Source: an uncultured Alphaproteobacteria bacterium (lineage in GTDB: Bacteria; Pseudomonadota; Alphaproteobacteria; Methylaequorales; Methylaequoraceae). From it: a DNA stretch of 52,347 nt. The first letter of the stretch is position 1. Every line of letters begins with the position of its first letter. The notes beneath the pieces were generated by a model. The model did no database searches. It was not told the DNA's origin and saw nothing but the letters and a program-made list of their open reading frames with translations. Position numbers and translations under genes: made by a program. Positions 17,136 through 22,489 of this stretch are shown one piece after another. The DNA is taken from the NCBI GenBank assembly GCA_902522465.1, contig CABYVV010000002.1, positions 129,764 to 182,110 of the forward strand, written 5' to 3'.

Positions 17136-18908
17136 ATGAAAATTCCTTCTAATGTAATTCAAGAAGATTTAAAAAACAATTATGAAAAAAATTACACCTC
17201 TATAAAGGGAATACTCTGGTATAGCAAAAAAATAAATATGTCAGAGGTTGAGGAGATTAAAAATAAATTTAATTTAGATTTTAGCATTGCAAAACTTGCA
17301 GTATCTAGAGGTATAACTGTAAAAACTTTTAATGATTTTATTGAGCCGAAAATTAAAAATTTAATGCCTGATCCTATGGTCTTAGATGATATGGAGAAGG
17401 CAACAATCAAAATAATTGAATTTATAAATAAAAAAAAAAAAATAGGAATCTTAGGTGACTATGATGTTGATGGTTCTTGTTCTATTGCGCTTTTATATAA
17501 CTATTTAAATGATATTGGTAGCAGATGTGAATATTATGTTCCTGACAGGTTAGAGGAAGGCTATGGCCCAAATATAAAAGCTTTAAGAGAACTTAAACAA
17601 AAAAACTGTGAATTAATTTTAACGCTTGATTGTGGAACAACTTCATTTGAACCAATTAATCAAATTTGTAAAGAAGGGGCAGATGTAATTGTTGTTGATC
17701 ATCATATTGAATCAGGTCCTGCGCCGAATGCATTTGCAATCATAAATCCCAAAAAAAAGACTGATAACTCTCTTTTACAAAATCTTTGTGCTACAGGTGT
17801 AGTTTTTTTTTTAATCGTTGCGATAAATAGAAAATTAAAAAGTCAAAATTATTTTAGTTCTTTTTCAAGTCCAAATTTGATGAAGTATTTGGATCTTGTC
17901 GCACTTGCTACAATTTGTGATTTGGTAAAGCTTGATCAAATTAATAGAGCATTTGTTAAGCAAGGTATAAAAATTCTTAATAATACAAGTAATATCGGTT
18001 TAGGTTGTTTAATTGAAGATTCCGCAATTAATCAGAAGATCAATGAGTATCATTTGGGTTTTGTTCTAGGTCCTAGAATTAATGCTGGAGGTAGAGTAGG
18101 TGATTCAAAAATTGGAGCTAACTTATTAGTATGCAATGATAAAAATACTTCTTATGTTTTATCGCAAAAATTGTGTGAGCTTAATAATTTAAGAAAAAGT
18201 ATCGAAAAAAAAGTTGAAAAAGAAGCTTTATTTAAAGTTGATGAAAGTGACGAAAATATAATTTGTGTTCATCAAGAGGATTGGCATCCAGGTGTAATTG
18301 GTATAGTTGCAGCAAAATTAACTGAGAAGTTTAAAAAACCTTCTATTGTAATATCAGAGAAAAGTGAAATATGTACTGCTTCTTGTCGTTCTGTAAAGAG
18401 TTTTAATGTTGGAGAATTTATAACAGATAGTATTAGGTCTGGAAAAATAATTTCTGGTGGAGGTCATAAGATGGCAGGTGGATTTAGCATTGAAAGATCA
18501 AAAATTGAGGAATTTAAAAAAACTTTAAAAAATAAATATTTTAAAAATTATGAAGATATTTCAAAAAGCTTTGAGTTTGAATTGAATATATCCTCTATTA
18601 ATTTTAAATTGTTTCAACTAATTGAACAATTTGCACCATTTGGTATCGGTAATCCTAAACCAAGATTTCTATTAAAGGGTTGTTCAATTACATATCCAAA
18701 ATTAGTTGGTGAAAAACATTATTCCTTTTTTTTAGAAGATTCAATTGGGAATAACATTAAAGCAATTTGCTTCAATTCTTTAGGAACGGACATAGGAAAC
18801 ACCATAGAAACTAAATCAATTGTCAAGGGTGTGATCGTAACTTTGACAATGAACGATTGGAATGGGGACAGAAATATTGAAGTATTTGTTGAGGATGTTA
18901 TTTGTTAA
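17136..18908 (+). CDS. recJ: Single-stranded-DNA-specific exonuclease RecJ
   Basis: RecJ is a 5'-3' ssDNA exonuclease used in recombination and mismatch repair. The 590 residues contain the DHH-family motifs: GILGDYDVDGSCS (about 104-116), LDCGTTS, VVDHHIE (DHH motif) and the DHHA1 signature ISGGGHKMAGGF (about 445-456). A C-terminal OB-like region follows (APFGIGNPKPRFLLKG). The gene is divergent from pfp (23-bp gap). Its last 4 bp overlap a minus-strand gene. Confidence 0.95.
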   Translation: MKIPSNVIQEDLKNNYEKNYTSIKGILWYSKKINMSEVEEIKNKFNLDFSIAKLAVSRGITVKTFNDFIEPKIKNLMPDPMVLDDMEKATIKIIEFINKKKKIGILGDYDVDGSCSIALLYNYLNDIGSRCEYYVPDRLEEGYGPNIKALRELKQKNCELILTLDCGTTSFEPINQICKEGADVIVVDHHIESGPAPNAFAIINPKKKTDNSLLQNLCATGVVFFLIVAINRKLKSQNYFSSFSSPNLMKYLDLVALATICDLVKLDQINRAFVKQGIKILNNTSNIGLGCLIEDSAINQKINEYHLGFVLGPRINAGGRVGDSKIGANLLVCNDKNTSYVLSQKLCELNNLRKSIEKKVEKEALFKVDESDENIICVHQEDWHPGVIGIVAAKLTEKFKKPSIVISEKSEICTASCRSVKSFNVGEFITDSIRSGKIISGGGHKMAGGFSIERSKIEEFKKTLKNKYFKNYEDISKSFEFELNISSINFKLFQLIEQFAPFGIGNPKPRFLLKGCSITYPKLVGEKHYSFFLEDSIGNNIKAICFNSLGTDIGNTIETKSIVKGVIVTLTMNDWNGDRNIEVFVEDVIC

Positions 18909-19252
18909 TCTACAATCCTCATTTGAGTGTAGTATATTCTACAATCTTTACCATCTGTTGATATCAAACAATCAAGATATTCTGAAAGACGTGCGTTTGA
19001 ACATCCTGCCTCTTTGTATAGAGGAATTCCTTTGAAATTCTTTTCAAAGCTATTTTTAAATTTTTCCAATTCAGATGATTTGATATTAGGTTTGTCTTCG
19101 AATCGAATTTTAATTTTATTGATAGCTGTCTCGTAGGGAAATATTATCTCGTATCCCCTCAAGTTGCAGAGGTGATTATTAGCTTCTTTACCTTGACTTA
19201 GAAAAGGCAACAGCAAAATAGCAAATAAGGCGAATCTAGTAAGAAAAGTCAT
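18905..19252 (-). CDS. Small exported protein of unknown function
   Basis: I do not recognise the family. The 115-residue product starts with a signal peptide (MTFLTRFALFAILLLPFLSQGKEA). The mature part is about 92 residues with four cysteines (in HLCNLRG, EAGCSN, LDCLI and KDCRI), which could form two disulfides in the periplasm. The gene begins 71 bp upstream of tRNA-Glu on the other strand and its end overlaps recJ by 4 bp. A clear signal peptide, an uninterrupted frame and compact placement support a real gene. Confidence 0.6.
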   Translation of the reverse strand: MTFLTRFALFAILLLPFLSQGKEANNHLCNLRGYEIIFPYETAINKIKIRFEDKPNIKSSELEKFKNSFEKNFKGIPLYKEAGCSNARLSEYLDCLISTDGKDCRIYYTQMRIVD

Positions 19253-19323: not shown

Positions 19324-19399
19324 GTCCCCTTCGTCTAGTGGTTCAGGACACCGCCCTTTCACGGCGGCAACACGGGTTCGAATCCCGTAGGGGACGCCA
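19324..19399 (+). tRNA. tRNA-Glu(UUC)
   Basis: The acceptor stem GTCCCCT (19324-19330) pairs with AGGGGAC (19389-19395). It is followed by discriminator G and an encoded CCA (19397-19399). The anticodon stem-loop CCGCC-CTTTCAC-GGCGG reads TTC. The T-arm GGGTTCGAATCCC is standard. The spacer to the convergent tonB end holds only a weak AT-only hairpin (TTAATT-TAA-AATTAA). Confidence 0.96.
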
Positions 19400-20144: not shown

Positions 20145-22145
20145 TTAAAATTCCTTAGAAATTTTAAATAAGGTATTAAATCCTGGAAGTGGGTAGTAAC
20201 TTACTGTGTGATAAACTCCTGAACCTGAACCAACAGCGTAGTTATAATGTATTTTATCTTGCAAGTTATTTAGCGCCAAAGAAGCTTTATAACCTTTAAA
20301 GCTTCCTACAAATCCTAAATTTAAGGTATGATAACCTTTTTGTACAATTTGATAGTTTCTGAAATCATTAAGAGGCCTAGAACTTGACTGATAATAAAAA
20401 TTAAAATAAGTCGAAAGATTTTGTAATGGTGAATAATTAATTTGTAAAGAATCTACAAAAGCTGGAACTCCTGGAAGATCATTTTCGTTTCTGTCCCCAC
20501 CTCTAAATTTTGCTTGTGTAAGAGTAAATGCATTTTCTATATTAAGGTTTTCCATGAAAGAATATTTAAAGTTATTCTCGATACCATATCTCTCGGTTGG
20601 TGCTAAGTTTTTGTTATAAAAAGAATTGTCCGTTGTAGAAATTTCAGAACGTAATCTCATATAGTAAAGAGTTGTAGTGATATTAAAACTATCAAAACTG
20701 AGTTTATGACCGAACTCAAAATCATGAGATTTTTGAGGTCCTAGTTTAAAACTTGTACTGTTAGTAAATCCACTGCCTAGTCCAATTCTTTCATCTAAAT
20801 TAGGATATCTAAAACTTCTTCCAATTTTTGTAGAAAAAATGTTGTAATTGTTGAGTTTATATTCGTAACCAAGATGATACGCAAATTGTGGGTTTGAAAA
20901 ACTTTCTGGAGATTTATCTGTATAAGTTCCTCCGTAGTATGACCCTGGTGTTACACTGTTAGATGCTCTAAGCCAATTTCCATGATATCTAGCCCCAACA
21001 GAAAATTTGTTTTCTGAGTTTAACTTAACATTTGAATTAAAATAGATAGCTGCAGTTTTATCAGTCATTTTAAAATTTGTATAATAATGTGCTCCATCAG
21101 ACTGCATTCTGTCGGAATAATAGTTAGCATAAATTAAATCTAGTCCAATAATATTGTCTAGGTCAATTTTATTGATCTTGTACTTAAAGAGATATCTTGG
21201 AGAAATCTGGTAATTATATATTTCTGTATCTGAAAACTCTCCCATATTAGCTTGGCTTTTATCAAAACTATAGCTACCGTCTATGACAACTTCATGATTA
21301 TTAATTGGAGAGTAGTTAAGCCCATAGAAAGTTTTATACCCATTTCTTTGGTTGAACTGAGTGGGTGTGCCGGTGCCTCTTGGATCACTCCTAAGTGTAA
21401 CCACACTCCTTGTTCCAGGCAATTCAAGATATTGATTATGTGCTAACACATTTAAATGATATGAGAGGTTTTCATTTGCTCCTTTAAATTCAATACTACC
21501 GTTTCTCTGACTAAGAGCATTATTTCTTCTAAAGCCATCGGTAGAAATAAAATTTGTATTTCCAGTAACTGAATATATGCCTGCTGTTTTTGTACCTGAT
21601 AATGCACCTTCGTATTTACCAAATGATCCAGTTGCGAATTTGGCAAATAAAGAGTCTTTTTGATTAGGAAGGATATCAGTAATGATATTTACAGTTCCTG
21701 CAGACGAGTTATTTCCATAAAGAACGGAATTGTTGCCTTTAGTAATTTCTATTTTCTGAATACTGTCAATCGGAATAATTGATAAATCAACCAAACTCAT
21801 ATCACCCATTGTGAGTTTTTGGCCATTTATTAGAATTGCTGTATTGTCCCTTGCTGTGTCCGCAAAACCTCTGATATCAATTCTCGACCCCACACCAAAC
21901 CCAGTACCATAAATATCAAATTGTTTTTTTACACCAGGATATTTTGTTATCAAATCAACAATTGATTCACTTGTTGAATTTTGAATATCACTTTTAGTTA
22001 TTGTATATGTTTCAGCACCATAGATTCCATCAACTTGTAGTTTAGAAGATTGTACAATAATCTCATCTTCTATCGTTTGAGCTTTTATTTCTTGATTAAT
22101 ACTGGCAATTAATATTACAAAAGTTAAAAAAAGAGATTTCCACAT
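20145..22145 (-). CDS. btuB: TonB-dependent vitamin B12 (cobalamin) outer membrane receptor BtuB
   Basis: The product is 666 residues from the ATG at 22145, which has an AAGGA RBS and gives a good signal peptide (MWKSLFLTFVILIASINQEIKA). The frame extends 28 codons further upstream, but this lies in the riboswitch leader and is not credible. The mature N-terminus (QTIEDEIIVQSS) has a TonB-box-like EDEIIV segment. A plug domain follows (DIRGFADTARDNTAILINGQ, YGNNSSAGTVNIIT). The remainder is a beta-barrel ending in a terminal Phe. Specificity for cobalamin is inferred from the cobalamin riboswitch just upstream. tonB follows 1 bp downstream. Confidence 0.9.
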   Translation of the reverse strand: MWKSLFLTFVILIASINQEIKAQTIEDEIIVQSSKLQVDGIYGAETYTITKSDIQNSTSESIVDLITKYPGVKKQFDIYGTGFGVGSRIDIRGFADTARDNTAILINGQKLTMGDMSLVDLSIIPIDSIQKIEITKGNNSVLYGNNSSAGTVNIITDILPNQKDSLFAKFATGSFGKYEGALSGTKTAGIYSVTGNTNFISTDGFRRNNALSQRNGSIEFKGANENLSYHLNVLAHNQYLELPGTRSVVTLRSDPRGTGTPTQFNQRNGYKTFYGLNYSPINNHEVVIDGSYSFDKSQANMGEFSDTEIYNYQISPRYLFKYKINKIDLDNIIGLDLIYANYYSDRMQSDGAHYYTNFKMTDKTAAIYFNSNVKLNSENKFSVGARYHGNWLRASNSVTPGSYYGGTYTDKSPESFSNPQFAYHLGYEYKLNNYNIFSTKIGRSFRYPNLDERIGLGSGFTNSTSFKLGPQKSHDFEFGHKLSFDSFNITTTLYYMRLRSEISTTDNSFYNKNLAPTERYGIENNFKYSFMENLNIENAFTLTQAKFRGGDRNENDLPGVPAFVDSLQINYSPLQNLSTYFNFYYQSSSRPLNDFRNYQIVQKGYHTLNLGFVGSFKGYKASLALNNLQDKIHYNYAVGSGSGVYHTVSYYPLPGFNTLFKISKEF

Positions 22146-22281
22146 ATTTTTTCCTTTCTCAGATTTGTATCTGAAAACAATTAAAATAAGTGAGATAGTT
22201 GAGTCCCACCATGGTTGACACGTCACCACGATGGATTTTCCATATCAGAAGACCTACCCGCAGTCTGATTGAATGACGCTA
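22146..22281 (-). promoter_or_regulatory. Expression platform and leader between the B12 aptamer and btuB
   Basis: This 136-nt leader links the aptamer to the btuB start. On the minus strand it holds two small hairpins. One is TCAGA/TCTGA (22245-22268), whose loop is rich in G and could be the kissing-loop partner or a switch helix. The other is ATGGA/TCCAT (22231-22243). No T-run typical of an intrinsic terminator is seen, so control is more likely at translation. The RBS AAGGA is near 22155. Confidence 0.5.
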
Positions 22282-22428
22282 ACTTAGCAGGTTTCCTGAC
22301 TCATTGCTTTTGGTTTTGTCGCCTTCCCAATTATATCAGTGGCACATTGACAAAACACACAATTTACAGTAGCGGGGGCTGTACTAGACTTTAACTAGTT
22401 TCCCTTTTAACCCTTGCAGGCACTAAGT
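22282..22428 (-). promoter_or_regulatory. Cobalamin (adenosylcobalamin-type) riboswitch
   Basis: On the minus strand the order of conserved elements is complete. First is AAGGGTTAAAAGGGAA, then CCCCCGCTACTGT, GCCACTG, GGGAAGGCG and finally the B12 box AGTCAGGAAACCTGC (22287-22301). P1 closes as ACTTAG (22423-22428) with CTAAGT (22282-22287). These match the known cobalamin riboswitch consensus. It lies 5' of btuB-tonB and should turn down expression when B12 is plentiful. The opposite strand holds the msrA start 62 bp beyond. Confidence 0.95.
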
Positions 22429-22437
22429 ATATTTATC

Positions 22438-22465
22438 ATATTATTTTTATTAGAATTAAAGTCAA
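22438..22465 (-). promoter_or_regulatory. Predicted promoter of the riboswitch-btuB-tonB unit
   Basis: On the minus strand TTGACT (22465-22460) and TAATAT (22443-22438) are 16 bp apart. An alternative -10, TATGAT, lies at 22440-22435 with 19-bp spacing. Either would start transcription at about 22430, next to the 5' end of the aptamer P1 helix. Confidence 0.5.
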
Positions 22466-22489
22466 TTTAATTGTAAAACAAGAGTAGTA

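Follow-up and report, generated by a model that had tools for sequence, protein, structure and literature searches.

A kissing contact between the loops L5 and L13 is established for the class of cobalamin (B12) riboswitches, as stated in the available part of PMC10653944, and two riboswitches treated there serve here for comparison. In Priestia megaterium metE, according to the same part of that paper, L5–L13 kissing (C-C-G with C-G-G) and a competition between P13, an antiterminator and a terminator have been demonstrated; the antiterminator forms with the 3' side of P13, the terminator was tested by mutation and the ligand represses. The E. coli btuB riboswitch, which controls a TonB-dependent B12 receptor, also contains the kissing loop, but works via a hairpin at the ribosome-binding site (RBS). 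Here, we analyse a cobalamin riboswitch in a 52,347-nucleotide (nt) stretch of DNA from an uncultured, probably marine alphaproteobacterium (the window, in which all positions are counted), where it precedes the genes for a TonB-dependent receptor and a TonB family protein; leader, riboswitch, receptor and tonB all lie on the minus strand (Table 1). The riboswitch as such is ordinary, a new member of the known RF00174 type. Judged from folding models, it would turn off receptor and tonB when B12 is sufficient, most likely through transcription attenuation. The most interesting part of the analysis is an exchange of the receptor cassette among relatives, in the clearest case with one crossover inside the riboswitch.

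The genome carrying the window (G000; 1.33 Mb in 35 contigs, 86.8% complete) was compared with 31 relatives, giving a family set of 32 genomes, most of which are incomplete, so that single absences carry little weight. A covariance search of the leader (cmscan against Rfam) matched RF00174 over model positions 1–189 of 189 with 106.9 bits (gathering score 31.5; E 7.1e-26), which bears out the proposal of a complete B12 riboswitch made in the initial annotation. This is the sole RF00174 match in the genome, and full-length matches are present in 22 of the 31 relatives. The full-length aptamer, P1, L5 CCCCCG and the motif GCCACUG, which we take to be the B12 box, are common to the Rfam model and this leader; the match stops at 22269, ahead of P13, and the platform helices P13, OUT, Pb, Pc and Pd are described here beyond the model. 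The window leader was aligned with 18 family leaders that have a complete platform ahead of a receptor (19 sequences). P1, correctly placed in the initial annotation, has 99.1% of its cells paired and changes on both sides in 5/6 pairs. In the bound-type structure as a whole, 98.0% of cells are paired, whereas slid controls reach 49.4% at most; 22 cells are altered on both sides, compared with 4.6 in shuffles. P1, P13, L13 CGGG, OUT, Pc and a Pd-like hairpin occur in all 19 leaders, with few unpaired cells. The aptamer, P1, P13 and the L5/L13 complementarity are thus present in this leader; P1, P13 and Pc are supported by covariation among the aligned sequences, and the RNA probably binds adenosylcobalamin or another corrinoid, as predicted from its sequence. 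In a permissive Rfam search of 22130–22300, every match was either at chance level or the end of the cobalamin aptamer. A second, downstream aptamer was rejected (the best other match, preQ1-II, scored 18.4 bits against 47), as was a phage origin of the leader (zero matches in the phage collection).

The hairpin that the initial annotation had noticed at 22245–22268 and tentatively cast as a translational control element is real and conserved, its CGGG loop being found in 23/23 family leaders, but its role is a different one. It is P13, the sensor hairpin with the standard kissing loop and not a lid on the RBS, because its loop is complementary to CCCG of L5, the known kissing pair; its end lies about 85 bases upstream of the Shine–Dalgarno sequence. 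The combination CCCG/CGGG is found in 19/19 aligned sequences. For other Alphaproteobacteria, 80 loci were compared, of which 21 were dropped as the script found no anchor in them and 59 were used. There, CGGG occurs within the first 60 bases of the platform in 46/47 rows whose L5 is CCCG, counts that stand without a computed chance level in these GC-rich leaders, and both rows with CUCG (2/2) have CGAG; ten further rows gave another 4-mer, often through wrong extraction, and one of these has a match. A kissing contact of the platform with the P4 loop (UUAAAGU) was likewise considered and dropped: by eye, no conserved complement was seen, and CCCCCG is L5 according to the Rfam structure line and the literature.

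Beyond the aptamer, three helices would make up the switch. Pc, the candidate antiterminator, overlaps OUT by 3 nt on one side and Pd by 3 nt on the other; because of these shared bases it cannot, as read from the sequence, coexist in full with either of them, whereas OUT and Pd are compatible. In the aligned set Pc is 97.4% paired, with a covariation score of 0.325 (0.166 in shuffles) and 15 cells changed on both sides (6.7 in shuffles), for example GUGGU/ACCAU versus GAGGU/ACCUC. OUT covaries in part of the other Alphaproteobacteria (GUCACC/GGUGAC, GUCGCC/GGCGAC, AUCGCC/GGCGAU), and in a motif-anchored test 24/39 rows contain the partner of their own 6-mer, compared with 25% (336/1328) for foreign 6-mers. 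As 15/39 rows lack a partner at the set spacing and the 5' motif is missing in 20/59, OUT appears from these alignments to be common in Alphaproteobacteria but not general. Detecting OUT by any enclosing helix of 6 base pairs was uninformative (53/59 loci, 41.6 expected from shuffles). Pd has seven pairs and a stability of −6.5 kcal/mol, and the terminator-like pattern at 22210–22179 was found once against 0.4 expected in shuffles. In the methods of PMC9600662, as far as that source was available, an intrinsic terminator is a stem-loop directly before at least five consecutive U. The tail of Pd, UAUUUUAAUU, contains no run of five U, its longest run being four, and Pd is for this reason termed terminator-like and not an intrinsic terminator. 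The initial statement that the platform has no U-run terminator was incomplete in that it overlooked this hairpin and its U-rich tail; Pc had been overlooked as well.

The following sequence of events would connect these parts. Cobalamin binding would lock L5 to L13 and thereby stabilise P13 and OUT; OUT, once formed, would block Pc and free the 5' arm of Pd; Pd would then form, and RNA polymerase would stop ahead of the receptor gene. The stop might occur at Pd itself, acting as a weak terminator, or be aided by Rho or pausing, or Pd might act in some other way. Without ligand, Pc would form and Pd would not. Compared with metE as described in the available part of PMC10653944, the kissing pair, P13, the competing antiterminator and terminator and repression by the ligand are alike in this proposal. 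Two differences are that the candidate antiterminator here uses the 3' strand of OUT, a helix that encloses P13 and a second hairpin, in place of the 3' side of P13, and that Pd is terminator-like by its sequence, whereas the metE terminator was probed by mutation.

Models in which either OUT or Pc was forced were computed for the 19 sequences. The energies of the two folds differ by 0.0 kcal/mol on average (range −2.7 to +5.0; G000 −1.2), near-equal as a switch needs. Mean pairing of Pd is 0.85 with OUT forced and 0.14 with Pc forced (0.69 and 0.00 in G000). The start region is unpaired to 0.38 in the bound-like fold with OUT and to 0.29 in the Pc fold (mean of 19; 0.31 and 0.29 in G000), and this shift is reversed only in G031 (1/19). 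Taken across the 19 thermodynamic models, the start region was thus not found to be less accessible in the bound-like state.

These models bear directly on the translational output suggested in the initial annotation, in which the bound fold would hide the RBS or start codon, perhaps with Rho-dependent termination to follow. Such an output agrees with the available parts of two sources, one reporting an earlier prediction that cobalamin riboswitches of Gram-negative bacteria act on translation (PMC12121620) and the other describing E. coli btuB and env8 as translational (PMC10653944); moreover, the U tract at Pd is weak or missing in many relatives, and in this leader the hairpin Pe adjoins the Shine–Dalgarno sequence. 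The likeness to btuB extends to the kissing loop and to the control of a receptor gene, but a hairpin that covers the RBS and is coupled to the bound fold was not found in this leader, in contrast to btuB as the available part of PMC10653944 describes it. In the bound-like fold Pd is paired and the start region is slightly more accessible, which is the wrong direction for repression; a conserved platform complement to the RBS was not seen by eye, no systematic search having been made; and Pe is tied to the receptor allele type, its sequence not being common across the family. We therefore consider translational output the less probable reading. A related fold, in which the 3' arm of Pd and its tail sequester the start codon, occurs in the minimum-energy structure of G000; it was rejected, being complete only in six G000-type leaders and such as would make the ligand an activator. 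In many receptor leaders, the stretch from Pd to the start codon is predicted to contain a hairpin of unrelated sequence, equivalent to Pe (22177–22155).

Against transcription attenuation, the mechanism that we favour at moderate confidence, stand the following observations. The forced-fold models ignore the ligand, tertiary contacts and co-transcriptional order, and the drop of Pd under forced Pc is partly built in by the bases that the two helices share. Pd pairing is low despite forced OUT in G004 (0.27) and G024 (0.42), while it persists under forced Pc in G031 (0.97), G008 (0.59) and G015 (0.49), and P13 is not in its usual form in 2/4 printed OUT-forced folds (G002 and G008). L5 and L13 are invariant within the family and hence show no covariation there; in OUT, 5/8 family pairs are invariant and three vary on one side only. 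For Pc, two of the counts do not rise above chance, pairs with both-side change (2 versus 2.4 in shuffles) and additional pair types (6 versus 6.4), and its changes fall mostly between two sequence groups, so that independent events may be few. Besides the missing five-U run noted above, the first eight tail bases contain 2–6 U (mean about 4) across the 19 leaders, several tails are not U-rich, and a textbook U run is found only in G016; taken by itself, Pd has modest stability (z −2.1 on average over the 19; −1.2 in G000). According to the available part of PMC12121620, nearly every taxon concerned also had further cobalamin riboswitches without a sign of transcriptional action. A more radical doubt, that this RNA is a relic, decayed or no longer switching, which still resembles the family, could appeal to several non-standard pairs within the aptamer in the Rfam alignment and to a stability that is only moderate relative to shuffles (z −1.8; 4/100 equally stable). 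Yet the compensatory changes in P1, P13 and Pc, together with the full-length matches in relatives, point to selection on the fold and make a relic very improbable.

Across the family loci (including L045, L044, L039, L069 and L067), the receptor tree conflicts with that of the flanking genes. Coded as members of the genus of the window, G002 and G009 have receptors 92–93% identical to that of G025 from another genus over the first 470 residues, but only 42–44% identical to the G000-type receptor of their own genus; their tonB is 80–82% identical to that of G025, whereas the adjacent msrA reaches only 57–58%. Holding the ten same-genus rows together was rejected in the receptor tree (p-AU 5e-46), as was, in the flank tree, a common group of G002, G009 and G025 (p-AU 1e-59), both values being nominal since the groups were named after the identities were known. 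Among these ten is G008, whose flank groups with another genus despite its coding as the same one. In identity profiles with 60-base windows, the curves cross at starts 150–210 bases from the aptamer start, at the aptamer end and P13: on the 5' side G002 and G009 resemble their own genus, on the 3' side G025. The half of the platform with Pc and Pd goes with the receptor (95–97% identity of G002 or G009 to G025, compared with 79–85% for the aptamer). At the right-hand border, the G009 profile reverts at tRNA-Glu, just past tonB. G004 contains a third receptor type without a known donor, and its identity with the genus is lost and regained at the same two places, although it also dips within the aptamer. 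Two further cases are less sharp, G026 sharing with the G000 type and G014 with G031, and in the latter pair the left-hand switch falls within the receptor gene.

As read from these profiles, receptor, tonB and the Pc–Pd half have been replaced as a cassette in relatives while promoter and aptamer stayed. G009 appears as the clearest case, with its left crossover inside the riboswitch, between the aptamer and Pc, and its right one at tRNA-Glu. The places where the profiles cross suggest that conserved RNA sequences served as crossover anchors. We tentatively propose that riboswitch and tRNA-Glu act as homology anchors and form a plug-compatible socket for receptor exchange: an incoming cassette with its own Pc and Pd would stay under B12 control at once, because the contact surface of L5/L13 and OUT hardly varies. 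Escape from phage or a preference among corrinoids might drive such exchange, which is speculation. Among the matches listed, literature titles and abstract openings describe neither this locus nor receptor exchange at a riboswitch. Farther to the right, in 17136–19252, the gene which we take to be recJ-like and the neighbouring gene for a protein of 115 amino acids (aa) are in G000 only about 60% and 70% identical, respectively, to those of the same genus; among G004–G007, G009 and G011 the same two genes share 85–96% and about 90% identity. By this comparison, the right flank of G000 also looks replaced. The 115-aa protein (18905–19252) has zero Pfam or NCBIfam matches and presumably a signal-like start; its gene stands beside the locus in 14/22 other loci compared.

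With a complete aptamer ahead of the receptor, B12 control of the receptor–tonB pair is probable, as first suggested; the name btuB given to the receptor has to be weakened. Among solved structures BtuB matches it best (E 1e-9, over the plug region only), but it scores 62.6 bits with TIGR01779, the BtuB equivalog model, where the cut-off is 599.7, and a haem/transferrin receptor model scores it higher (71.4 bits). It is BtuB-like at most and, on its sequence, probably serves B12 uptake. These scores, together with the lack of a FecCD (BtuC-type) permease among the matches of 29/32 family genomes including G000, which leaves the uptake route incomplete on paper and also counts against our proposal, could mean that the receptor imports something else and that the riboswitch senses B12 for an indirect reason. 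We consider this improbable. In addition to the structural match, the riboswitch precedes the receptor in 20/20 genomes with leader sequence, comprising the 19 complete leaders and that of G028, which is truncated by a contig end but retains the platform and the aptamer's 3' part. A receptor was found in 22/32 family genomes, those of G010 and G019 lying at contig ends. In L062 (G020), L064 (G027) and L068 (G023), a riboswitch of the same type stands instead ahead of cobW–cobN (CobW, tested in G020 and G023, scores 467 and 461 bits with TIGR02475), and in these three genomes a receptor homologue was not found at E 1e-10. They are also the only ones with a FecCD permease (3/32) and with CobN, which was not found in G000 (87% complete). 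CobS is present in 17/32 genomes and was likewise not found in G000. B12-binding domains occur in 32/32 genomes, in G000 in frames of 883 aa and 712 aa, which from their size may be MetH and a mutase, while the B12-independent methionine synthase (MetE) was not found in 31/32, G000 included. The organism plausibly needs imported B12, since such frames are present and neither MetE nor CobN was found.

The initial annotation had also placed a promoter next to P1, and this is likely, although the exact −10 element is not settled by the sequence. The transcript would begin at about 22431, immediately 5' of P1. In a scan of 23 family leaders (match score out of 12, without shuffle control), the top promoter-like site lies at the same place in 12, and seven of these (G008, G014, G019, G021, G025, G026 and G031) have TTGACA-16-TAATAT or TTGACA-16-TATCAT. 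As a bare pattern, TTGACT-16-TAATAT is non-significant (2 occurrences in the region against an expected 3.6 from shuffles). In G000 an alternative upstream, TTTACA-17-TCTAAT at 22477–22449, scores 10/12 compared with 9/12, and another upstream match scores at least as high as the standard site in G000 and in 6/9 other genomes coded as the same genus.

Table 1. Features of the riboswitch leader and adjoining genes, with positions in the window
Feature	Position	Strand	Remarks
Whole leader	22465-22145	-	Holds the full-length Cobalamin aptamer
Probable promoter	22465-22438	-	TTGACT (22465-22460), 16-nt spacer, TAATAT (22443-22438); from pattern and family leaders
Cobalamin riboswitch aptamer (RF00174)	22442-22269	-	Full length
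P1, 5' strand	22428-22423	-	ACUUAG
P1, 3' strand	22287-22282	-	CUAAGU; pairs with ACUUAG
L5 loop	22378-22373	-	CCCCCG, core CCCG 22376-22373; Rfam structure line, alignment
B12 box (name assumed)	22343-22337	-	GCCACUG; Rfam alignment
Helix OUT	22279-22220	-	GCGUCAUU (22279-22272) with GGUGACGU (22227-22220); encloses P13 and Pb
P13 hairpin	22269-22244	-	AUCAGA/UCUGAU; L13 CGGG at 22260-22257; compensatory changes in 3/6 pairs
Hairpin Pb	22243-22231	-	AUGGA/UCCAU; 91.6% of cells paired
Helix Pc, candidate antiterminator	22232-22208	-	8 base pairs, AUCGUGGU (22232-22225) with ACCAUGGU (22215-22208)
Hairpin Pd, terminator-like	22210-22179	-	GGUGGGA (22210-22204) with UCUCACU (22195-22189), followed by the tail
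Hairpin Pe	22177-22155	-	UUUUCAGAU/AUCUGAGAAA; goes with this receptor allele type
Shine-Dalgarno-like sequence	22157-22151	-	AAAGGAA, before ATG 22145
TonB-dependent receptor, BtuB-like	22145-20145	-	666 aa; Plug and beta-barrel domains
TonB family protein	20143-19421	-	240 aa; begins one base past the receptor
tRNA-Glu (ttc)	19324-19399	+	Right border of the exchanged cassette in G009; identity resumes there in G004

The analysis corrects the mechanism first proposed for this leader and offers a concrete switch of Pc, OUT and Pd. It also provides a case in which recombination would have cut a riboswitch between sensor and actuator with the architecture of the switch kept. Within one family, a single riboswitch stands either on B12 synthesis (cobW–cobN) or on its probable uptake (receptor–tonB), a split between making the cofactor and taking it.

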